Positions 45,816-60,263 of a stretch of 64,000 bases of DNA are shown here, piece after piece. The notes beneath the pieces are model-generated. The model was given only the letters and a program-made list of their open reading frames with translations. It had not been told where the DNA came from and ran no database searches. Made by a program: the position numbers and the translations under genes. Positions within the stretch are counted from its first letter, which is position 1. Each line of letters starts with the position of its first letter. Origin of the DNA: Curtobacterium caseinilyticum (GTDB lineage: Bacteria; Actinomycetota; Actinomycetes; Actinomycetales; Microbacteriaceae); the NCBI RefSeq assembly GCF_030363035.1, contig NZ_JAUCMN010000002.1:248001-312000 (forward strand), read 5' to 3'.

Positions 45816-46319
45816 TCAGCGCACCGGACCGCCGCCCACCGCCGTGGCATCGGTGCCGACGGGTGCCGAGCCGTCGTAGCCGCAGATCGCCGCGACCTTC
45901 TCGGCGCTCGCGCTCGCCGTGTCGAACTCGTAGCCGAGCCACTCCTTCGCCAGACGCCGTGCGAGCTCGATCCCGACGACGCGCTGCCCGAGGCAGAGCA
46001 CCTGCGCGTCGTTCGACAGCACCGAGCGCTCGACGCTGAACGAGTCGTGCGCGGTGACCGCCCGGATCCCCGGCACCTTGTTCGCGCTGATCGCCACCCC
46101 GAGTCCGGTGCCACAGACCAGGATCGCCCGGTCTGCCTCGCCGTCGGCGACCATCCGTGCCGCGTCCACCGCGACGTGCGGGTACGCGGTGTGCCCGTCG
46201 GCACCGACCCCGACGTCGACCACGCTCACCACGCGGTCGTCCGCCTCGAGGTCACGCTTGAGGACCTCCTTGTAGTCGAACCCGGCGTCGTCCGAGCCGA
46301 TCACGAGACGGAACGTCAT
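45816..46319 (-). CDS. derI: RpiB/LacAB-family isomerase, probable D-erythrulose-4-phosphate isomerase
   Basis: 167 residues. The RpiB fold starts [14 protein letters not shown] (Asp10, Asp11). Catalytic Cys69 is in [17 protein letters not shown], and GQRVVG follows. In mycobacterial tetritol pathways the homologous enzyme DerI converts D-erythrulose 4-phosphate to D-erythrose 4-phosphate. The adjacent erythrulose-type kinase and EltD/DthD-like dehydrogenases favour that role over ribose-5-phosphate isomerase. Its ATG overlaps the kinase stop by 4 bp. Symbol assigned by context. Confidence 0.82.
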
Positions 46320-48058
46320 GCCGCCACTCCTTCGTGCTGGTGCGCGCGCGCGGCGAGCACCTCGCCCACGCGCGTGAGGACCATCCCCATCGAGGTCGCC
46401 CCGGCGTCAGGGGTGCCGACGCTCTTCTCGGCGAGCGGCCGGGCACGCCCGACCCGTGGCCGCAGGTCCGCCGTCGCCGCGGCCTGCTCGACCGCGACCC
46501 CTGCCGCCGCCTGCCACGCCTCGGCCAGGTCGGCGCCGTCGTCGACCGAGGACCGCAGCGCCTCGACGAAGGGGAGCAACGCGTCGAGCAGCGTCTTGTC
46601 GCCGCGGGACGCGCCGCCGAGGTGCACGATCGAGTCCGCGAACGCCTGCGCCGCCGCGACGACCTCGGACGCGCCCACGTGCTCGGCGTCGTCGCCGAGC
46701 GCGCGCCCGAAGGCCTCGAGGGCCGCACCCCACAGCACGCCGGACGTGCCGCCCGCCGACTCGGCCCACGCCGCACCGGCGCGGCCGAGGACGAAGGCGA
46801 CCCCGGCCTCCCCGTCGGTCTGCTCGACCGCCCGACGGGCCGCGCCGATCCCCTTCACCATGCCGCGTCCGTGGTCACCGTCCCCGGCGACCGCGTCGAT
46901 GCGCCCCAGTGTCTCCTCCTGGGCACGGAGCAGCACGTCCATCGCCGCGACGGCGACGCGCGCCGTGTCGGCGGCCCGCCGGGAGGCACCGGTCGCCACC
47001 GGCACGACCGTCACCTCCGCCGCGGCCTCGGCGACCGCCGTGGCCGGCACGAGCGCCGCGACCGGCGCCGCGACCTTGCGGTACGCCGGTGTGTAGGCGT
47101 CTGCGCGCCAGTGGCGCTCGAGCTCGTCGTCGAGGAACTGCAGCGTGAGGGAGCAGCCGCCCATGTCGAGGCTGGTGACCAGTTCGCCGACCTCCGGCTC
47201 GACGACCTCGAGCCCGGCGTCCTCGAGGAGGGGCAGCACCCGGCCCCAGAGCAGGAAGAGCTCCTCGTACTTGGTGTCGCCGAGGCCGTTGAGGATCGGT
47301 GCGACCCGCGGTCCGGCCCCCTCGGGGCGTTCGGCGAGCAGCCTGCCGACGAGCAGCGTCGCGAGCTCCCGGGCGGGCAGCACCGGGACGTCCTGGATGC
47401 CCGGCTCGCCGTGGATGCCCAGGCCGAGACCGAGGTGCCCGTCGGGGACGGAGAAGAGCGGCTCGGTGGTGCCGGGCATCGTGCAGCCGGAGAACGCGAC
47501 GCCGATCGTGCGGGTCGCGGCGTTCGCGGCGGTGCCGACCCGCTCGACCTCGTCCAGGTCGGCGCCGGTGGCTGCAGCTGCGCCCATCGCCTTGAAGACC
47601 GAGAAGTCGCCGGCGATGCCCCGCCGCTTCGCGACCTCGTCGGCGCTCGCCACGTCGTCGGTGACGACGACGATCCGGGTGTCGATGCCATCGGCGCGGA
47701 GTCGCTCGGCGGCGAGGCCGAAGTTCATCGTGTCGCCGGCGTAGTTGCCGAACGACAGCACCACGCCGCGCCCCTGGTCGGCGGCCTTCGCGACCGAGTA
47801 GACCTGCGCCGCCGACGGCGAGGTGAAGACGTTGCCGACCACGGCGCCGGTGGCGAAGCCCGGGCCGACGACACCGCAGAACGCGGGGTAGTGCCCGGAG
47901 CCACCGCCGACGACGACGGCGACCTGCGGGTCGGCGCCCTCGGTCGGGAGGGCGACCACCCCGCCGTGCACGCCGCGTACCCGGTCGGCGTAGAGGGCGA
48001 GCCAGCCGGCGAGCTGGTCGTCGGCGAAGTCCTCGGGGTCGTCGTGGATCGTGGTCAT
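46316..48058 (-). CDS. DhaK-DhaL fusion kinase, probable erythrulose kinase
   Basis: 580 residues, an ATP-dependent single-chain DHA-kinase-type enzyme. The DhaK half contains [17 protein letters not shown] and GLGIHGEPG, where His216 is the residue that binds the ketose carbonyl covalently in this family. The DhaL half (from about 370) has [13 protein letters not shown], the nucleotide/Mg2+ motif, and [12 protein letters not shown]. In mycobacteria paralogues DerK and LerK phosphorylate D- or L-erythrulose; this locus has only one. Dihydroxyacetone is the alternative substrate. Start ATG 48058. Confidence 0.88.
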
Positions 48059-48152
48059 GGCAGTGCGTTCCTGTCGTCTGGTGGATCAGGGTGGAAGGGG
48101 ACGGGATCGGGTCGGGCGACCGGGTGCGTCGGTCGGGGTCGGAGGGGTCGTG

Positions 48153-48222
48153 TCGGGCTGGTCTCGTCGAGCTGGTCTCGTCGGGCTGGTCTCGTCGGGC
48201 TGGTCTCGTCCGGCTGGTCTCG
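48153..48222. repeat. 14-bp tandem repeat, five copies
   Basis: TCGGGCTGGTCTCG repeats at 48153, 48167, 48181, 48195 and 48209, with single changes in copies 2 and 5. It fills much of the 223-bp gap between the transporter stop and the kinase start. There are no spacers and no palindromy. The rest of the gap holds nothing recognised. Confidence 0.85.
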
Positions 48223-48281
48223 TCGGGGGGACCGGGCGGCGGTGGGACGGCCACCGCCGCCCGGGGTCGGGTCGACGTGCG

Positions 48282-49610
48282 TCAGCGGGCGCCGCCGTGC
48301 GGGCGTCCCTGGGGAACGTCGAGGAAGTGGATCATCACGAAGGCGCAGGCGTAGAGGCCGACGAAGGTCCAGGTCACGGCTTGACCGCCGCCGCCGAGCG
48401 CGAAGACCGCTGCGACGACGCCGGTGCCGAGGAAGGCCGCGCCGCCGGCCGCCGTGGTGTACATCGCCATCGCGGCGCCCTTGTGCTCCGGAGCGAGCGC
48501 CGGCATGATCGCGCCCATCGGCACGAAGCCGGCGAGCAGGCACCCGAAGACGCAACCCGCGGCGACGGAGAGGACGTAGCCCCAGTCCGAGCCGGCGGGC
48601 ACGAGCTGCGGCACGTACCACCAGGCGACGAGCCCGGTCGCGGAGCCGACGATGCCGAACCACTTGACGGTGCGCTGCCAGCCGATCCGGTCGCCCACCC
48701 AGCCGAACAGGGCGTTGACGAGGATGTTCGTCGCGTAGACGCAGACGGTCATGAGCAGCCAGCGGCCCTGGCCCCACCCGCGGTCGTTCGCGATGATCGC
48801 GGGGAGCACGACGAACATGCCGAACTCGGGTGCGGTGTTGATCAGGCGGACGAGGAAGCCCATCAGGATCTTCGGCCGCGTCGCCGTCAGGCGGATGCCG
48901 CTGGTGAGGACCCGCCAGGCGCTCTCTCCCGCCGGCGCGATCCGGGTGAAGCCGTTGGGCAGGCGGACGCCGAACAGCATGATCAGGAACCCGGCGACCA
49001 CCAGGCCGATCGATGCGACCATCGCACCGGTCTCGCCGGCCGTGCCGCCCCCGAACACCGGGATGGCCCCGATGGCGAACAGCGAACCGAGGGTGGGCAG
49101 GCCGCCGGTGAACGCGACGTAGAACCAGCCGACCGCGGCACCGTTGCGCTCGACCGGCGTGGTGATGTTCACCCAGACCAGGAACGCGAACGCGAAGAGC
49201 GGGTAGCCGAAGCCGCGCACCGCGTAGGCGACGGCGGCGAACGGCACGCTCCGGGCGTCCAGCGCGAGCAGGAACATCACCTCGGGGACGACCCAGACGG
49301 CGAACCCGAGGATCATCACCCGGCGCGGACCGACCAGGTCGGACAGGGCGCCGGAGACGTAACTGCCGATCAGCGCGGCGAGGCTGTAGAACGTCACGAT
49401 CGTGGCGACGGTGGCCTCGGGGCTGCCGAGGACCGCGACCATGTGCGGGGTGACGAAGTTCGACTCGACCCCGTTGCCGGTCATGAAGACCAGCACGGCG
49501 ACGAAGCCGAGGGCGAGCGGACGGGGGATGCCCATCCGGTCGAGCCGGCCCTCGGGCCGGGTCGGGGTGGACGTGGGCGCCGTGGTGGCGCGTGCTGCCG
49601 TGGTCGACAT
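48282..49610 (-). CDS. MFS polyol transporter (RbtT/DalT/CsbX-like)
   Basis: 442 residues, 12 helices. VFMTGNGVESNFVTPHMVAVLG in two parts, GALSDLVGPRRVMILG as the loop motif, and RLINTAPEFGMFVVLP are typical of the ribitol/arabinitol permease group. Its place between the EltD-like dehydrogenase and the erythrulose-type kinase makes it the probable tetritol uptake system, driven by H+ symport. Start ATG 49610, 20 bp after the dehydrogenase stop. Confidence 0.86.
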   Translation of the reverse strand: MSTTAARATTAPTSTPTRPEGRLDRMGIPRPLALGFVAVLVFMTGNGVESNFVTPHMVAVLGSPEATVATIVTFYSLAALIGSYVSGALSDLVGPRRVMILGFAVWVVPEVMFLLALDARSVPFAAVAYAVRGFGYPLFAFAFLVWVNITTPVERNGAAVGWFYVAFTGGLPTLGSLFAIGAIPVFGGGTAGETGAMVASIGLVVAGFLIMLFGVRLPNGFTRIAPAGESAWRVLTSGIRLTATRPKILMGFLVRLINTAPEFGMFVVLPAIIANDRGWGQGRWLLMTVCVYATNILVNALFGWVGDRIGWQRTVKWFGIVGSATGLVAWWYVPQLVPAGSDWGYVLSVAAGCVFGCLLAGFVPMGAIMPALAPEHKGAAMAMYTTAAGGAAFLGTGVVAAVFALGGGGQAVTWTFVGLYACAFVMIHFLDVPQGRPHGGAR

Positions 49611-49630
49611 CGCGGGGACTCCTCGCTGTG

Positions 49631-50818
49631 TCAGGCCCGCGCGGCGGACGTGGTCGACCCGGACGTGGTCGGCGCGCTCAGCGACGGGACGATCGAGACC
49701 TTCACCGATGCGCCGGCCGAGTCGCCGACCAGGTCGAGTGCCTGCTGGAAGTCCTCGAGCGGGAACTGGTGCGTGCAGATCTCGTCCATCGGCAGCGTGC
49801 CCGACTCGAGCAGCTTGATGGCGGCCGGCCACGTGTGCGGCCCGAGGTGGGCACCGCGGACGTCGAGCTCCTTGTCGTCGGAGATGATCGACCAGTCGAC
49901 GGAGACGTCGTCCTTGAAGACCGAGTACTCCACGAACGTGCCGAGCTTGCGGAGCAGGGCGAGACCCTGCGGGACGGCCGAGGGGTGGCCGGTCGCCTCG
50001 ATGTACACGTCCGCGCCGTAGCCGTCGGTGAGTTCCCGCACGCGGGCGACCGCGTCCTCCCGCGCGATGTTGATCGTCACGTCGGCGCCGACCTTGCGGG
50101 CGAGGGCGAGCTTCTCGTCGACGACGTCGAGCGCGACGACCCGCAGCGGGTTCTTCTGGCGGGCGCCGGCGATCGCGGACAGGCCGATCGGGCCGGCACC
50201 GGCGATCACCACGGTGTCGCCGAACCCGACGTCGCCGCGCTCGACCGCGTGGAAGGCGCAGGACAGCGGCTCCGCGAAGGCGGCGACCTGGCCCGGCAGC
50301 GTTCGGTCGACCGGGTGGGTCAGGGCCCTCGACGGGACGAGCACGTACTCGGCCATGGCGCCGTCGAAGCCCTTGAACCCGAACATGTCGTGCACGGCGC
50401 ACATCCAGTAGGCGCCCTCGAGGCAGTAGCGGCACTCCCGGCACGGGACGATCTGCTCGCACGCGATGCGGTCGCCGAGGGACACGGCGCGCTTGCCGAG
50501 GGCCTCGTCGTCGCCGGCGACGACGGTGCCGACGAACTCGTGCCCGGGGACCCGGTCGGCCTCCGCCCACGCGGGGCGGTGCTCGTCACCCCAGAACTTC
50601 GCGGCGCCGTGGTAGCACTTCAGGTCGCTCGCGCAGATGCCGACGGCGTCCGTGCGGAGCAGCAGTTCACCGGGTCCGGGCACGGGCACGGGGCGTTCCT
50701 CGAGCCGGTAGTCACCGGGGCCGTGCACCACCACGGCTCGCATCGTGCTCGGCAGGGCGTCGTGTCCGGGGAGGTGCCCCGGGGTGGTCGTCGTCGTCTC
50801 GGTCGTCGTCGTCGACAT
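49631..50818 (-). CDS. eltD: Zinc-dependent erythritol/L-threitol dehydrogenase-like enzyme
   Basis: A 395-residue medium-chain dehydrogenase. The catalytic zinc site is visible (GICASDLKCYHG and PGHEFVG), and the structural zinc site is CRECRYCLEGAYWMC. The NAD-binding motif is VVIAGAGPIGLSAIAGA. The sequence fits the EltD group, which oxidises erythritol or L-threitol to L-erythrulose. A Thr-rich N-terminal tail and a Ser/Thr/Ala-rich C-terminal tail are additions. It is the first gene of the leftward operon, transcribed from the shared divergent promoter. Confidence 0.85.
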   Translation of the reverse strand: MSTTTTETTTTTPGHLPGHDALPSTMRAVVVHGPGDYRLEERPVPVPGPGELLLRTDAVGICASDLKCYHGAAKFWGDEHRPAWAEADRVPGHEFVGTVVAGDDEALGKRAVSLGDRIACEQIVPCRECRYCLEGAYWMCAVHDMFGFKGFDGAMAEYVLVPSRALTHPVDRTLPGQVAAFAEPLSCAFHAVERGDVGFGDTVVIAGAGPIGLSAIAGARQKNPLRVVALDVVDEKLALARKVGADVTINIAREDAVARVRELTDGYGADVYIEATGHPSAVPQGLALLRKLGTFVEYSVFKDDVSVDWSIISDDKELDVRGAHLGPHTWPAAIKLLESGTLPMDEICTHQFPLEDFQQALDLVGDSAGASVKVSIVPSLSAPTTSGSTTSAARA

Positions 50819-50874
50819 GCGCTGGTCCTCCGTTGGTCAGCCGGGCGGGTGCCCGTTCCGATGGGTCGGCGACG

Positions 50875-50923
50875 ACTGTACACGAGGCAGAACAGATGTC
50901 CAGAACACAATTTCTGCTAGCGT
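50875..50923. promoter_or_regulatory. Divergent promoter/operator of the tetritol locus
   Basis: Leftward: TGGACA (50902-50897), 16 bp, TACAGT (50880-50875). Rightward: TAGCGT (50918-50923). Between them CAGAAC occurs twice (50888, 50901), and CAGAA-N6-TTCTG forms an inverted repeat (50901-50916). This is the likely binding site for the SorC regulator encoded downstream. Confidence 0.55.
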
Positions 50924-50960
50924 TCCGATCCGCACGACCACGACGCGCAAGGGAGCGAAC

Positions 50961-51767
50961 ATGACCACCGACCTCGACACGGCCCTCCGACCGGGCCCGC
51001 AGACCGTCGACCTGACCAACGACCTGACGGGCCGGACGGCCGTCGTCACGGGTGGCGCGTCCGGCATCGGCAACGCGATCGCCCGCGCCTTCGCGACCCG
51101 TGGGGCACGTGTCGCGATCCTCGACGTCCGCGCCGACGGGGCGTCGTCCGCCGCGGCGGACCTGCCGACGGTCGCGAGCGGCGCGCACCTCGGGCTCGCG
51201 TGCGACGTCACCGACGACGTGTCCGTGGCCGAGACGGTGCAGGCGGTCGTCGACGCGGCCGGGTCGATCGAGGTGCTCGTCAACTGCGCCGGCATCGTCG
51301 CGCTCGACGCCGCCGAGGACCTCGACGCCGGCGCCTGGGCCCGGACGCTCGACGTCAACCTCACCGGCACCTTCCGGCTCGCCCAGGCCGTCGGTCGGCA
51401 CATGCTCGCCGCCGGCACCGGGCGGATCGTGAACATCGCCTCGCAGGCGGCGCACGTCGGACTCGACCGGCACGCGGCCTACTGCGCGTCGAAGGCCGGC
51501 GTCCTGGGGCTGACCCGGGTGCTGGCGCTCGAGTGGGGCGGGCGCGGGGTCACGGTCAACACGGTCTCGCCGACCGTCGTGCTCACCGACCTCGGGCGCG
51601 CGGCCTGGGCGAACGAGGCGGGCATCCGTCACCAGCGCGAGATCCCGACCGGCCGCTTCGCGACGCCCGCCGAGATCGCCGCAGCGGTGCTGTTCCTGGC
51701 GAGCGACGGCGCGGCGATGGTGAACGGCGCCGACCTCCGCGTGGACGGCGGGTTCACGATCCGGTGA
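50961..51767 (+). CDS. dthD: GolD/DthD-family short-chain dehydrogenase (probable D-threitol dehydrogenase)
   Basis: A 268-residue SDR. The cofactor motif is TGGASGIG (30-37). Asp55 at the end of beta-2 favours NAD+. Catalytic Ser161, Tyr174 and Lys178 are in NIASQAAHVG and AAYCASKAG, with Asn133 assisting. DthD oxidises D-threitol to D-erythrulose in mycobacteria, and the GolD relatives oxidise D-arabinitol. The neighbouring kinase, isomerase and EltD-like gene favour the tetritol role. AAGGGAG lies 5 nt before the ATG. Confidence 0.83.
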   Translation: MTTDLDTALRPGPQTVDLTNDLTGRTAVVTGGASGIGNAIARAFATRGARVAILDVRADGASSAAADLPTVASGAHLGLACDVTDDVSVAETVQAVVDAAGSIEVLVNCAGIVALDAAEDLDAGAWARTLDVNLTGTFRLAQAVGRHMLAAGTGRIVNIASQAAHVGLDRHAAYCASKAGVLGLTRVLALEWGGRGVTVNTVSPTVVLTDLGRAAWANEAGIRHQREIPTGRFATPAEIAAAVLFLASDGAAMVNGADLRVDGGFTIR

Positions 51768-51820
51768 TCCGCGGTCGGACTACGATCCCAGTGTCCGACC
51801 GATCCGAAGGGTCCCGCAGC

Positions 51821-52786
51821 ATGTCCTCCGAGAGCACCACCGGCGCCGAGGGGTCCCGGGCCCGCTTCCCGCTCGACACCGTCTACCAGGCGGCGCGGAT
51901 GTACTACCTCGAGGACGCCACCCAGGTCGAGATCGCTTCGCGCCTCGGGGTCTCCCGGCCGACGGTGAGCCGGCTGGTCGCCGAGGCCCGGCGTGCCGGG
52001 CTCGTCCGCATCGAGGTCGTCGACCCCTTCCAGGACGAGACCGTCGCGCTCGCCGAACGGCTGCAGGTCGTGCTCGGCCTGCGCGCCGTGCACCTGGCGG
52101 CCGTCACACACCAGGCGACCCTCGGCGCCGACCTCGCCGGCCCGATCGCGACCGCGGTCGAGGGGATGGGCCTGGTCCCCGGGGACGCCGTCCTGATGTC
52201 CTCGGGCCGGACCGTGTACGACGTCGCGCACGCGGGCATGCCACCGCTCGCCGGGGTCCAGCTCGTGCCGACGGTGGGCGGGCAGGCGGACCCGATGCCG
52301 TGGTTCCAGACCAACGAGATCACGCGCACCGCGGCCGAGCACTCCGGCGCGATCCCCGCGTTCCTCTTCGCCCAGGCGCTGCCGTCCCACGCCATGCGGG
52401 CCACCCTCGACGAGGACCCGGCGTTCCAGCACGTGGTCGGGCTCTGGGGGCGGGCAAAGGGCGCGATCCTCGGCGTCGGCGCCCCGACCCCGACGCGGGA
52501 CGCGCTGGCTCGGGGCATCCCCGTGGAGGACGCGGCCTTCGACCAGGCAGCCGGCGACGTCTGCCTCAACTTCTTCGCTGCCGACGGCTCGCCGATCGAG
52601 TTCCCCGGAAGCGAACGGATGGTCCGCACCTCGCGCGAGGTCCTGGCCGGGGTGCCCCACGCCGTCGGTGTCGCCGTGGGGGCGGCGAAGGTGCCGAGCA
52701 TCACCGGTGCGGTCCGCGCCGGGATGATCAACGAGCTCGTGACCGACGCCGCCACGGCGCGAGCCCTGCTCGACGCGCTCGCCTGA
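51821..52786 (+). CDS. SorC/DeoR-type sugar-binding transcriptional regulator
   Basis: A 321-residue regulator. The N-terminal HTH is AARMYYLEDATQVEIASRLG followed by VSRPTVSRLVAEARRAGLV. The effector domain has the SorC sugar-phosphate fold (GDAVLMSSGRTVYDV, KGAILGVGAP, GSERMVRTSREVL). It is placed just after dthD and likely responds to a tetrulose phosphate. An in-frame GTG at 51791 is a possible longer start; ATG 51821 is preferred from the HTH position. Confidence 0.87.
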   Translation: MSSESTTGAEGSRARFPLDTVYQAARMYYLEDATQVEIASRLGVSRPTVSRLVAEARRAGLVRIEVVDPFQDETVALAERLQVVLGLRAVHLAAVTHQATLGADLAGPIATAVEGMGLVPGDAVLMSSGRTVYDVAHAGMPPLAGVQLVPTVGGQADPMPWFQTNEITRTAAEHSGAIPAFLFAQALPSHAMRATLDEDPAFQHVVGLWGRAKGAILGVGAPTPTRDALARGIPVEDAAFDQAAGDVCLNFFAADGSPIEFPGSERMVRTSREVLAGVPHAVGVAVGAAKVPSITGAVRAGMINELVTDAATARALLDALA

Positions 52787-57369: not shown

Positions 57370-59112
57370 CTACGCGGGCTGCGCCGCCGAGTGCAGCGGC
57401 ACGACCACGCCGTGCGACTCACGCAGGACGTCGAGCGTGCGCTGGACCTCGTCCGCGCGCTCCTCGGTCGTCCAGCCGAGCGCCTCGGCGAGCACGTCGG
57501 CCAGCTCGTCGAGCAGGTCGATCGTGACGCCGCCCACGAAGGCGAGGTTCGTGCGACGGAGCACCACGTCGACCAGGTGCACGGCCTGCTCGTGCTGGGC
57601 GAAGTACGCGACCTCGGCGCGGGTGAGCGACGGGTCGGACTCGAGTGGCTCGACCGGGCCGTCGATCAGCACGTCGACGACCTCTGCGGCGCGGGTGCCG
57701 TAGCGCTCGAGCAGACCCTCGACGACGGACTCGTCGAGACCGTCCCGGTGCGCCGTGATCCAGAGCGCACGCTGCGCGTCGGTCGTCGGGAAGTCCTTGC
57801 CACCGCCGATCGGCATGCCGGTCGTGTCGACCTTGCGGGCCACCCCGAGCTTCTGCGTGGCCTCGGTCGACAGGTGTGCGGCGAGGGCGCGGAAGGTCGT
57901 CCACTTGCCGCCGACGAGCGACAGGACCGTGCTGTCCGGCAGCCCGGCGATCGGGGTGTCGACGATCCGGTAGTCGCGGGACACGAAGCCGGGGGCGGTG
58001 TCCTCGTGGCGGGGGAGCGGTCGGATGCCCGAGTAGCTGTAGACGATGTGGTCGCGGGTGACCTCGATCTGCGGGAAGACGTGCTTCACCAGGCCGAAGA
58101 AGTAGTCGATCTCCTCCTCGGTCGTCGTGACCGGCTTCGAGGGGTCGGCGTCGATGTCCGTCGTGCCGATGAGCACCCGGCCCTTGAGCGGGTAGATGAG
58201 CACGATGCGGCCGTCGTTGTTCTCGAAGAACAGCTCGCGACCCTTGGTCGCCTCGAGCAGCTCGTCGTTGTGCACGACGATGTGCGACCCCTTCGTGCCG
58301 CCCATGAACTTCGTCTCGCCGCCGAAGGCCTGGTTCGTCAGGTCGGTCCAGGGACCGGAAGCGTTGATGACGACGTCGGCGTGGAACGCGAACTCCTCGC
58401 CGGTCTCGCGGTCGCGCAGGAGCACGCCGCCGTCGCGGGTGCCGGCGGCCTCGACGTAGTTGGTCGCACGCGCGGTGCTGGCCGACCCGGTGCCGGTGCC
58501 GGCGGCGATGCCGTCCTTGAGCACGTCGAGCGCCAGCCGCTCCGGCTCGTGCACGGAGGCGTCGTAGTAGGTGCCCGTGTACTTCAGGTCCTCGTTGAGC
58601 GCCGGCATGTCCTCGAGCGCTGCCTTCTTGGTGCGGAAGACGTGCTTCGGGACGGAGCCGCCGTCGCGCGAGAAGGAGTCGTAGATCGTCATGCCGATCT
58701 TGATGAGCATCGCGCCGCGCTCCTTGGTGGAGCGCTGCTTGTGCGTGAGCATGCGCAGCGGGGCGTTCATGATGCCGGAGAACGTCGAGAAGATCGGCAT
58801 GGTGGTCTGCAGCGGCTTGACGTAGTGCGGCGCGATACGGATGAGGCCGTTGCGCTCCTGGACGCTCTCGCGCACCAGGCGGAACTCGCCGTTCTCGAGG
58901 TAGCGGATGCCGCCGTGGATCATGTGGCTCGAGGCGGCCGATGCACCGCCGGCGTAGTCGCCGCGCTCGACGAGCACGACGTCGACGCCCTGCAGGGCGA
59001 GGTCGCGGAAGGTGGCGATGCCGTTGATACCGCCACCGACGATGAGGACCTGTGCGTTGGGGCGCTCGGTGAGCGCGGTCACCGTGTTCCGGGGCTGCGT
59101 CTTCTTCGACAT
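57370..59112 (-). CDS. glpD: Aerobic glycerol-3-phosphate dehydrogenase
   Basis: A 580-residue FAD enzyme oxidising sn-glycerol 3-phosphate to dihydroxyacetone phosphate, with electrons passed to menaquinone at the membrane. VLIVGGGINGIATFRDLALQ is the FAD motif. GGASAASSHMIHGGIRYLE is the signature of the DAO-type enzyme, and SLVGGKWTTFR closes the FAD domain. The C-terminal DAO_C domain follows from about 430. Start ATG 59112. Regulation: a palindromic operator lies in the 188-bp gap shared with the SorC gene. Confidence 0.94.
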   Translation of the reverse strand: MSKKTQPRNTVTALTERPNAQVLIVGGGINGIATFRDLALQGVDVVLVERGDYAGGASAASSHMIHGGIRYLENGEFRLVRESVQERNGLIRIAPHYVKPLQTTMPIFSTFSGIMNAPLRMLTHKQRSTKERGAMLIKIGMTIYDSFSRDGGSVPKHVFRTKKAALEDMPALNEDLKYTGTYYDASVHEPERLALDVLKDGIAAGTGTGSASTARATNYVEAAGTRDGGVLLRDRETGEEFAFHADVVINASGPWTDLTNQAFGGETKFMGGTKGSHIVVHNDELLEATKGRELFFENNDGRIVLIYPLKGRVLIGTTDIDADPSKPVTTTEEEIDYFFGLVKHVFPQIEVTRDHIVYSYSGIRPLPRHEDTAPGFVSRDYRIVDTPIAGLPDSTVLSLVGGKWTTFRALAAHLSTEATQKLGVARKVDTTGMPIGGGKDFPTTDAQRALWITAHRDGLDESVVEGLLERYGTRAAEVVDVLIDGPVEPLESDPSLTRAEVAYFAQHEQAVHLVDVVLRRTNLAFVGGVTIDLLDELADVLAEALGWTTEERADEVQRTLDVLRESHGVVVPLHSAAQPA

Positions 59113-59189
59113 TGGTGCGTCGCTTCCTTGGGTCGGTTCCGTGGGACGACTCCGATGGTGCGCCTGTGTGAGAGGTCGGGCAACTCGTG

Positions 59190-59203
59190 TGCACGAACGT
59201 GCA
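59190..59203. promoter_or_regulatory. SorC-type operator copy 1 (glpD side)
   Basis: TGCACG-AA-CGTGCA is a perfect 6-2-6 inverted repeat. The same motif recurs at 59275, 85 bp away, in the same gap. Confidence 0.7.
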
Positions 59204-59274
59204 GCACACGTGTCGTGCGGCTCGCAGGCGGCCGGGGCGGCGGCCGGGAGGCGCGACAGGGGTTGCAGAGGCCG

Positions 59275-59288
59275 TGCACGTCCGTGCA
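59275..59288. promoter_or_regulatory. SorC-type operator copy 2 (regulator side)
   Basis: TGCACG-TC-CGTGCA, same half-sites as copy 1, ends 12 bp before the regulator ATG. Occupancy here would block its own expression. Confidence 0.7.
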
Positions 59289-59300
59289 TGCTCGGTTCCC

Positions 59301-60263
59301 ATGAGCGACGCAGCGCAGCCCATGCGCACGCAGCAGGCGCTGCGCGCAGCGCACCTGTACTACCTGCAGGACCTGACGATGGACGCGATCGCCGACGAGC
59401 TCGGGACGTCGCGCTCGTCGGTCTCGCGCCTGCTCAAGTACGCCAGGGACACCGGGCTCGTCGACATCCAGATCCGCTCGCCGCTCGACCAGGCGGCAGC
59501 GCTCAGCCGGAACATCCGCGCCCGCTTCGGCGTGCACGCGCACGTCGTGCCGGTGCCGGACCACACGAGCGACGTCGACCGGCTCGAGCGGGTCGCCCTG
59601 TCTGCCGCCCGCATCCTGACCCAGTACGTCGAGTCGAACATGGTGATCGGGATCTCGTGGGGGTCGACCGTCAGCGCGGTCAGCCGGTACCTCGTCCCGA
59701 AGACCACGCACGGGTCCACGGTCGTGCAGATCAACGGCGCCGCGAACACCCGCACCACCGGCATCGTCTACGCCTCGGAGATCCTGCGGCGCTTCGGCGA
59801 GGCCTACGGTGCGTTCGTGCAGCAGTTCCCCGTGCCGGCGTTCTTCGACGACCCGGCGACGAAGGAGATGCTCTTCCGCGAGCGGTCGATCCGCCGCGTC
59901 CTCGACCTGCACGAGCGGATGGACCTGGTCGTCTTCGGCGTCGGTGCACCGCAGGCCCCGGTGCCGTCGCACGTCTACTCCGGCGGGTACCTCGACCCGG
60001 AGGACCGCGACGAACTGACCGAGGCCGGTGTGGTCGGCGACGTGTCGACGGTGTTCTACCGCGCGGACGGGTCGTGGAAGGACATCGGGGTGAACGCCCG
60101 GGCCGGAGCGCCGGACCTCGACACGATCAAGCGTGCGCCGAGACGGGTGTGCGTCGTGGCGGGACGGTCCAAGGCGGCATCGCTCAAGGGCGCACTGGCC
60201 GCGGGGCTCGTCACCGACCTCATCCTGGACGAGAGCGTGGGGCAGGCCATCCTGCAGCCCTGA
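59301..60263 (+). CDS. SorC/DeoR-type sugar-binding transcriptional regulator, probable glycerol regulator
   Basis: A 320-residue regulator paralogous to the one at 51821. The HTH is AAHLYYLQDLTMDAIADELG followed by TSRSSVSRLLKYARDTGLV. The effector domain contains GISWGSTVSAVSRYL and VVAGRSKAASLKGALAAGLV, typical of SorC phospho-sugar domains. It is divergent from glpD, with two TGCACG-N2-CGTGCA sites between, so it most likely controls glpD and itself. Possible effectors are glycerol 3-phosphate or DHAP (inference). Confidence 0.87.
   Translation: MSDAAQPMRTQQALRAAHLYYLQDLTMDAIADELGTSRSSVSRLLKYARDTGLVDIQIRSPLDQAAALSRNIRARFGVHAHVVPVPDHTSDVDRLERVALSAARILTQYVESNMVIGISWGSTVSAVSRYLVPKTTHGSTVVQINGAANTRTTGIVYASEILRRFGEAYGAFVQQFPVPAFFDDPATKEMLFRERSIRRVLDLHERMDLVVFGVGAPQAPVPSHVYSGGYLDPEDRDELTEAGVVGDVSTVFYRADGSWKDIGVNARAGAPDLDTIKRAPRRVCVVAGRSKAASLKGALAAGLVTDLILDESVGQAILQP

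Follow-up and report, generated by a model that had tools for sequence, protein, structure and literature searches.

What do two perfect inverted repeats do between glpD and the divergently transcribed gene of a SorC-family regulator? The question arises in a window of 64,000 nucleotides (the whole stretch of DNA that was analysed) from Curtobacterium caseinilyticum, where TGCACGAACGTGCA and TGCACGTCCGTGCA, both perfect copies of TGCACG-N2-CGTGCA, lie 85 bp apart, start to start, within the glpD/SorC gap. A sequence-only reading had reported two perfect repeats with the same half-sites at this distance between the two genes, and its coordinates and sequence are confirmed here. The features are as follows.

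57370-59112, minus strand: glpD, FAD-dependent glycerol-3-phosphate dehydrogenase of 580 aa (PF01266 and PF16901), the divergent target
59169-59182, no strand assigned: TGAGAGGTCGGGCA, weak second half of operator 1, exactly 21 bp upstream of the strong half and matching it at 8 of 12 positions
59190-59203, no strand assigned: TGCACGAACGTGCA, the glpD-proximal palindrome and strong half of operator 1, an exact and conserved match
59254-59267, no strand assigned: CGACAGGGGTTGCA, weak second half of operator 2, 21 bp upstream of the strong half and mainly its inner half, TTGCA
59275-59288, no strand assigned: TGCACGTCCGTGCA, the SorC-proximal palindrome and strong half of operator 2, an exact and conserved match
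59301-60263, plus strand: SorC-family regulator of 320 aa, with a DeoR-type helix-turn-helix (HTH) and a sugar-binding effector domain (PF04198)

The palindromes at 59190 and 59275 are the sole exact copies of the motif in the window, and only exact copies stand out there because looser counts sit near the shuffle mean: up to two mismatches gave 11 matches against a mean of 7.65, and 10 of 100 shuffles reached 11, which is chance level. Across the genome of 3,452,592 bases we found 7 exact copies, compared with the 0.7-1.8 expected under first- to fourth-order Markov models fitted to 211 kb of the genome's own DNA. All seven are intergenic by the simple gene calls made in this analysis. One-mismatch copies fell inside genes in 23 of 25 cases (22 of the 24 placed, plus that at window position 59715 in the SorC gene itself) and were taken as background; one of them is located ~60 bp upstream of a gene whose product resembles a sugar-binding lipoprotein (L033). 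An alternative is that the palindromes, which are perfect inverted repeats in DNA of high G+C content and can join RNA hairpins, are RNA or terminator structures, or chance repeats, rather than operators. RNA folding of the two sites was no better than that of shuffles (z -0.30 and -0.37), no terminator was found in the gap, the sites are conserved between divergent genes, and at glpX/fba the arms show 0.95 identity against 0.43-0.48 in the flanks; we regard the hairpin or chance reading as extremely improbable. No sigma-70-like promoter was recognised in the glpD/SorC gap.

Judged by its domains and alignments, the product of the gene at 59301 is a SorC-family protein of the DeoR subfamily. 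PF04198 matched residues 63-318 at 199 bits, which gives a C-terminal effector domain of ~250 residues, and the HTH matches were confined to residues 10-63, corresponding to a short homeodomain-like HTH of 50-60 residues; the winged HTH of ~100 residues that marks the SorC/CggR subfamily is excluded by an effector domain that begins at residue 63. The protein scored 216 bits against the NCBIfam DeoR orthologue model NF053881, whose cut-off is 420, and so falls outside the DeoR orthologues; it matched neither PF00455 (DeoRC), as a GlpR-family protein would, nor an IclR domain, as a GylR would. It is 99% identical to Curtobacterium records. Its nearest solved structure is PDB 3nze (297 bits over the effector domain, with common NGA and FPVPAFFD stretches), followed by DeoR, SorC and LsrR. 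The 3nze structure comprises the effector domain only and is listed as a 'putative' sugar-binding transcriptional regulator; a search of the open-access literature returned no paper naming it. Asn145, invariant in 14 sequences, aligns with the Schiff-base lysine of DeoR, and since the regulator lacks this lysine, binding of deoxyribose-5-phosphate in that manner is unlikely. Bacillus subtilis DeoR (PDB 8r7y and 4oqp) otherwise aligns over residues 9-318 (152 bits), and Arg38 and Arg43 of the regulator, also invariant in 14 sequences, align with Arg34 and Arg39, which contact bases in DeoR according to the available text of PMC11229326, the offset to the PDB numbering of DeoR being inferred. 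The divergent GlpD product matched the NCBIfam GlpD models below their cut-offs.

If the palindromes are operators of a glycerol-3-phosphate regulon, other glycerol genes should carry them, and the sequence-only reading had predicted copies near glpK, glpF and dha genes. The genome scan located a motif pair 75 bp apart between glpFK and the divergent dhaKLM. Single exact sites lie in the glpX/fba gap, upstream of cydAB, and in the interval that separates an inositol-monophosphatase-like gene from one for an M23 peptidase, so that 6 of the 7 exact sites adjoin glpD/SorC, glpFK/dhaKLM, glpX/fba or cydAB; the remaining one (C2:432907; L017 6908) has no evident link to glycerol. GlpK, DhaK, DhaL, the DhaM domain, GlpX, Fba and CydB passed curated cut-offs, and CydA and the GlpF-type channel gave model matches below theirs. 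Thus, the two pairs connect the uptake of glycerol with glycerol kinase, glycerol-3-phosphate dehydrogenase and dihydroxyacetone kinase, and the glpX/fba site leads from dihydroxyacetone phosphate (DHAP) to fructose 6-phosphate. In other bacteria this job belongs to GlpR, a member of another protein family (DeoR/GlpR, PF00455). The idea of a glycerol-3-phosphate regulon run by a SorC-type protein is supported; that this protein acts instead of GlpR is supported but unproved, in that no DeoR/GlpR-family gene lies beside the glp genes. The genome's four PF00455 proteins adjoin genes that read, by eye, as ptsH, fruK, pdxA and galT, and although the GlpR model was their best match they reached 157-211 bits against its 300-bit cut-off.

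Random scatter of the motif, with no conservation in orthologous gaps, would have spoken against this reading; the exact copies are instead intergenic, and the motif is conserved in such gaps. In the Curtobacterium group, two of whose records carry no title beyond Microbacteriaceae bacterium, both sites stand with at most one mismatch beside a divergent glpD in 44 of 44 loci, and in 43 both are exact. Eighteen loci from other genera carry the wider form TGCACR-N2-YGTGCA, again with at most one mismatch; a divergent glpD was seen in 14, the remainder being three Amnibacterium-type loci and one short contig. At the level of the order the regulator was matched in 126 of 248 genomes (E 1e-60 or better), and in the best 29 loci (the 30 best-scoring minus our own genome) a divergent glpD with the wider-form motif in between, at most one mismatch, was present every time (29 of 29, spread over four families with 16, 8, 4 and 1 loci).

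The motif persists where gene order differs (REARRANGEMENT). In both Amnibacterium genomes the regulator gene is flanked by glpFK and dhaKLM and has a motif on either side. The glpF/dhaK gap pair is present in all five other Curtobacterium genomes, and the corresponding Leifsonia gap holds one site with one mismatch in both genomes inspected. Galbitalea and three Microbacterium genomes with an orthologous glpF have glpD, glpF and glpK contiguous, with no site before glpF, and none precedes the glpF of Cellulomonas. The Arcanobacterium regulator is 43% identical to the 59301 protein, and the sole exact wider-form site of that genome lies ~125 bp before a glycerophosphodiester phosphodiesterase gene (L106 621-1501), whose product would release glycerol-3-phosphate; an open frame that follows is transporter-like by eye and had no Pfam or NCBIfam match. 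Retention of the motif across these gene orders indicates that the operator follows both the pathway and the regulator. Two further loci deserve mention: near the Galbitalea regulator gene, an open frame (L115 3-437) looks, on inspection by eye, like the last part of an IclR-type regulator, which may share the locus, and a metagenome record titled Acidobacteria (L080), probably misassigned, encodes a regulator 69% identical to ours beside an Amnibacterium-like motif.

Co-occurrence bears on whether the palindrome belongs to this protein at all. A set of 16 relatives that possess the regulator gave 51 occurrences of the wider form, as opposed to 6 of the reversed pattern. An orthologue scoring 250 bits or more is present in 87 of 150 Microbacteriaceae genomes; these 87 average 1.99 exact wider-form sites, compared with 0.34 for the reversed pattern, and 78 of them have one, leaving nine with no exact site. 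The 63 genomes without an orthologue average 0.68, against 0.30 reversed (p 0.009), and 29 have at least one site. With the three own-genus genomes removed, the difference between the two sets holds (Mann-Whitney p 7e-10; Fisher p 1e-8, odds ratio 9.8). The motif therefore tracks the regulator, imperfectly. Sites in those 29 regulator-less genomes, above the reversed control, are what one would expect if another factor, for example of CRP, LacI or IclR/GylR type, bound the palindrome and the SorC gene were simply a neighbour, and several families suit palindromes of such size. Three lines of evidence speak for the SorC protein: the motif flanks its gene on both sides where the gene has moved, it tracks the presence of the regulator, and its half-site spacing, TGNA-N6-TNCA, is that of DeoR. 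The CRP consensus differs from the palindrome. The core site of Streptomyces GylR, GGTCGGCATTGTCGAACA, is likewise unlike it, and the GylR operator, compared as a possible identity of the palindrome, gave no match (available text of PMC9732521). We therefore consider binding by another factor a distinctly poor prospect.

We also looked for glpD in 30 of the 63 regulator-less genomes, where a close type (59-63% identical) turned up in two, a distant one alone in 21, and none in the other seven at the threshold used. Upstream of 24 glpD loci in the 23 positive genomes there was no exact site and a single one-mismatch site, beside a close-type glpD. Because 22 of these 24 loci are the distant GlpD paralogue, this comparison says no less about whether the close GlpD goes with the regulator than about the motif. 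The one-mismatch site lies 72 bp upstream of the close-type glpD of Microbacteriaceae genome G177 (L232) and is perhaps a remnant; the regulator is present in G107, a genome from that genus.

Each palindrome of the glpD/SorC gap is accompanied by a second, weaker copy 21 bp upstream, giving a 35-bp bipartite site. GCA at -10, within the inner half of this copy, is present at all 44 distal sites of the Curtobacterium group and at 42 of its 44 SorC-proximal ones, as well as in Microbacterium (9 of 9), Leifsonia (2 of 2), Galbitalea (1 of 1) and Cellulomonas (1 of 1) and at 3 of 4 cydA sites. It is scarce at glpF-proximal (2 of 6), dhaK-proximal (0 of 8), Amnibacterium-type (1 of 3) and SorC-dhaK sites (0 of 2), and absent from the single sites of the metagenome-assembled genome M67, of Arcanobacterium, of our own glpX/fba gap and at C2:432907 (0 of 1 each). 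Weighted over 15 groups, its frequency was 0.49; no other upstream offset exceeded 0.12. Ranked by score, offset -21 came first for distal glpD sites and for other genera, was tied for glpF-proximal sites, came second for SorC-proximal sites (where -25 lay slightly above it, 6.65 vs 6.54) and for dhaK-proximal sites and third for cydA, and was not raised in the Amnibacterium set. The best 29 order-level loci have CA at -9/-8 in all 29, GCA in 15 and a full -21 copy with two mismatches in 5. A composite of 38 non-redundant glpD-gap sites (50 before near-identical rows were dropped, with 3 of the 44 Curtobacterium-group loci used) reads approximately KGMAC-N4-TTGCAA from -21 to -7, followed by TGCACR-WA-YGTGCA from 0 to 13. 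The two-half operator of the SorC/DeoR subfamily is accordingly found at the glpD gap; its second half is faint or lacking at a number of the other sites.

This layout closely resembles that of DeoR, whose operator TTGAA-N6-TTCAA has a direct repeat 22 bp on, a distance that we counted on the sequence quoted in the available text of PMC11229326; here TGCA-N6-TGCA has its copy 21 bp away. The same text states that DeoR half-operators alone have no affinity. The two systems differ in that the outer half of the second site is the better match in DeoR, whereas here it is the inner half, and in that DeoR controls deoxyribonucleoside genes, whereas the 59301 regulator lies beside glycerol genes. B. 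subtilis CggR offers a second likeness, being described in the available part of PMC11229326 as a tetramer on a two-half operator whose effectors, fructose 1,6-bisphosphate (FBP) and DHAP, are intermediates of its pathway. CggR has a winged HTH of ~100 residues and controls the gapA operon, in contrast to the short HTH here, with an effector domain from about residue 60.

The distance between paired palindromes also follows a pattern. Over the 45 glpD/SorC loci, the window included, spacings were 74-76, 84-86, 96 or 108 bp, and a phase test at 10.5 bp on the eight distinct values gave p 0.001. With the glpF-gap spacings of 65, 67 and 75 bp added, drawn from a 38-genome set among the matches listed, the 11 values gave R 0.81 and p 0.0002, and a period scan of these 11, their glpF-gap members again from the matches listed, peaked at 10.5 bp. 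Related loci contribute distinct values that the test counts as independent, which makes these p-values optimistic; with neighbouring spacings collapsed, p was 0.02 for the glpD gap (4 values) and 0.003 for both gaps (7 values, glpF-gap ones among the matches listed). Distances from site to start codon, approximate because start codons in relatives were extrapolated from alignments, showed no 10.5-bp phase for SorC or glpD (p 0.51 and 0.99), and the collapsed controls gave p 0.17 for SorC and, for glpD, an uninformative R of 1.0 on two values only. Such spacing suggests tolerance of insertions and deletions that leave the two operators on the same helical face, and with it cooperation between them.

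We think it highly probable that the 59301 protein is a SorC/DeoR-subfamily repressor of glycerol and triose-phosphate genes and of its own gene, acting through bipartite, probably cooperative operators and probably released by glycerol-3-phosphate or DHAP. As the local regulator of glycerol and glycerol-3-phosphate use, it would place four subunits, a dimer of dimers, on each 35-bp operator, formed by the strong TGCAC-N4-GTGCA and the weaker copy 21 bp upstream. In Curtobacterium the two operators of each divergent gap would face the same side of the helix, so that two tetramers probably cooperate, and the bound regulator would repress glpD, glpFK, dhaKLM and itself. When glycerol-3-phosphate or DHAP accumulates, it would occupy the effector domain, the assembly would come off the DNA and the genes would be expressed. 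Family precedent points to an effector that is a phosphorylated intermediate in the pathway under control, and these two metabolites are the natural candidates. Streptomyces GylR provides a precedent for the same job: as described in the available text of PMC9732521, it acts as repressor of the glp operon and of its own gene, and glycerol-3-phosphate and DHAP release it, although it belongs to the IclR family and uses an 18-bp operator of other sequence.

The direction of control admits an alternative, in which the same protein at the same sites would activate, or dually regulate, glpD and the remote genes and repress only itself. The distal site, 73-90 bp upstream of the glpD start in 45 Curtobacterium-group loci, and the cydA site, ~145-148 bp upstream of the cydA start, are suitably placed for an activator. 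Only in 18 of 45 loci, the window included, is the end of the SorC-proximal site 10-12 bp from the SorC start, a repressor position; in the rest it is 27-84 bp away. SorC-family members are, however, frequent repressors of carbohydrate catabolism, according to the available text of PMC11229326, and predicted repression fits both this family habit and the 10-12-bp sites. We judge activation or dual control to be unlikely, and we favor the repressor.

In Curtobacterium the proposed repressor would reach beyond glycerol, to gluconeogenesis at glpX/fba in some species and to the bd oxidase at cydAB. Unselected counts for these two sites are those of the 16-relative set. There the cydA site is exact in the wider form in the three Curtobacterium relatives with cydAB, and absent from all ten other-genus genomes and from the second cydA copy of genome G002; the glpX/fba site was exact in none of the 16 relatives and present with one mismatch in one. 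It is patchy, recurring in four further genomes that were found via the motif. Its arms are 0.95 identical and its flanks 0.43-0.48, and at cydA (L019 around 6187, L166-L168, L221, L222 and L229-L231) the arms are again 0.95 identical and the flanks fairly conserved at 0.68-0.76, in a comparison for which an exact match had led to each of the five glpX/fba loci and to five of the nine at cydA, our own included. Twenty stretches around exact sites in other Curtobacterium-group genomes comprised 9 glpX/fba or cydA gaps and 11 that we set aside as background, 8 of them inside coding genes (three the same deformylase-like gene) and 3 by unrelated genes. The cydA promoter region holds two more conserved elements, near GCACGGTTGTGCCGTGCA upstream of the motif and TTCTACAACTTGTCGA downstream of it, which suggests that additional regulators may act there. 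The sequence-only reading was right on the sites and largely right on their meaning; to it we add that the palindrome at glpD is the strong part of a longer, bipartite site and that the Curtobacterium regulon seems to reach glpX/fba and cydAB.

A broader reading, to which we give slightly less than an even chance, holds that the protein is a widespread and undescribed actinobacterial regulator of glycerol and triose-phosphate use, whose paired bipartite operators are in helical register, so that two tetramers bridge divergent promoters or loop across them, and which in Curtobacterium has become a small regulator of central carbon through glpX/fba and the bd oxidase. If true, Curtobacterium ties glycerol oxidation to gluconeogenesis, and a bd-type oxidase could accept the electrons of GlpD. 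A SorC-type regulator facing glpD may be the missing controller in part of the order, Cellulomonas being one named genome. GlpR and GylR already represent two protein families in this role, and the SorC-type regulator would add a third. A testable function and operator would become available for genes so far recognised just as those of sugar-binding regulators, and for the effector-domain structure 3nze, and the duplicated, helically spaced operators would offer a natural test of cooperation between SorC tetramers. Our literature search, limited to open-access papers so that absence is unproved, found no report of a SorC-type glycerol regulator; a 'sorC' match in the available text of PMC5430705 was to the software name Sorcerer only.

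The window also contains a second SorC-family gene (51821-52786), within a cluster at 45816-52786 that includes genes for a DhaK-type kinase, an RpiB-like isomerase, an MFS transporter, a zinc alcohol dehydrogenase and a short-chain dehydrogenase, and that may encode a pathway for a tetritol or another polyol.
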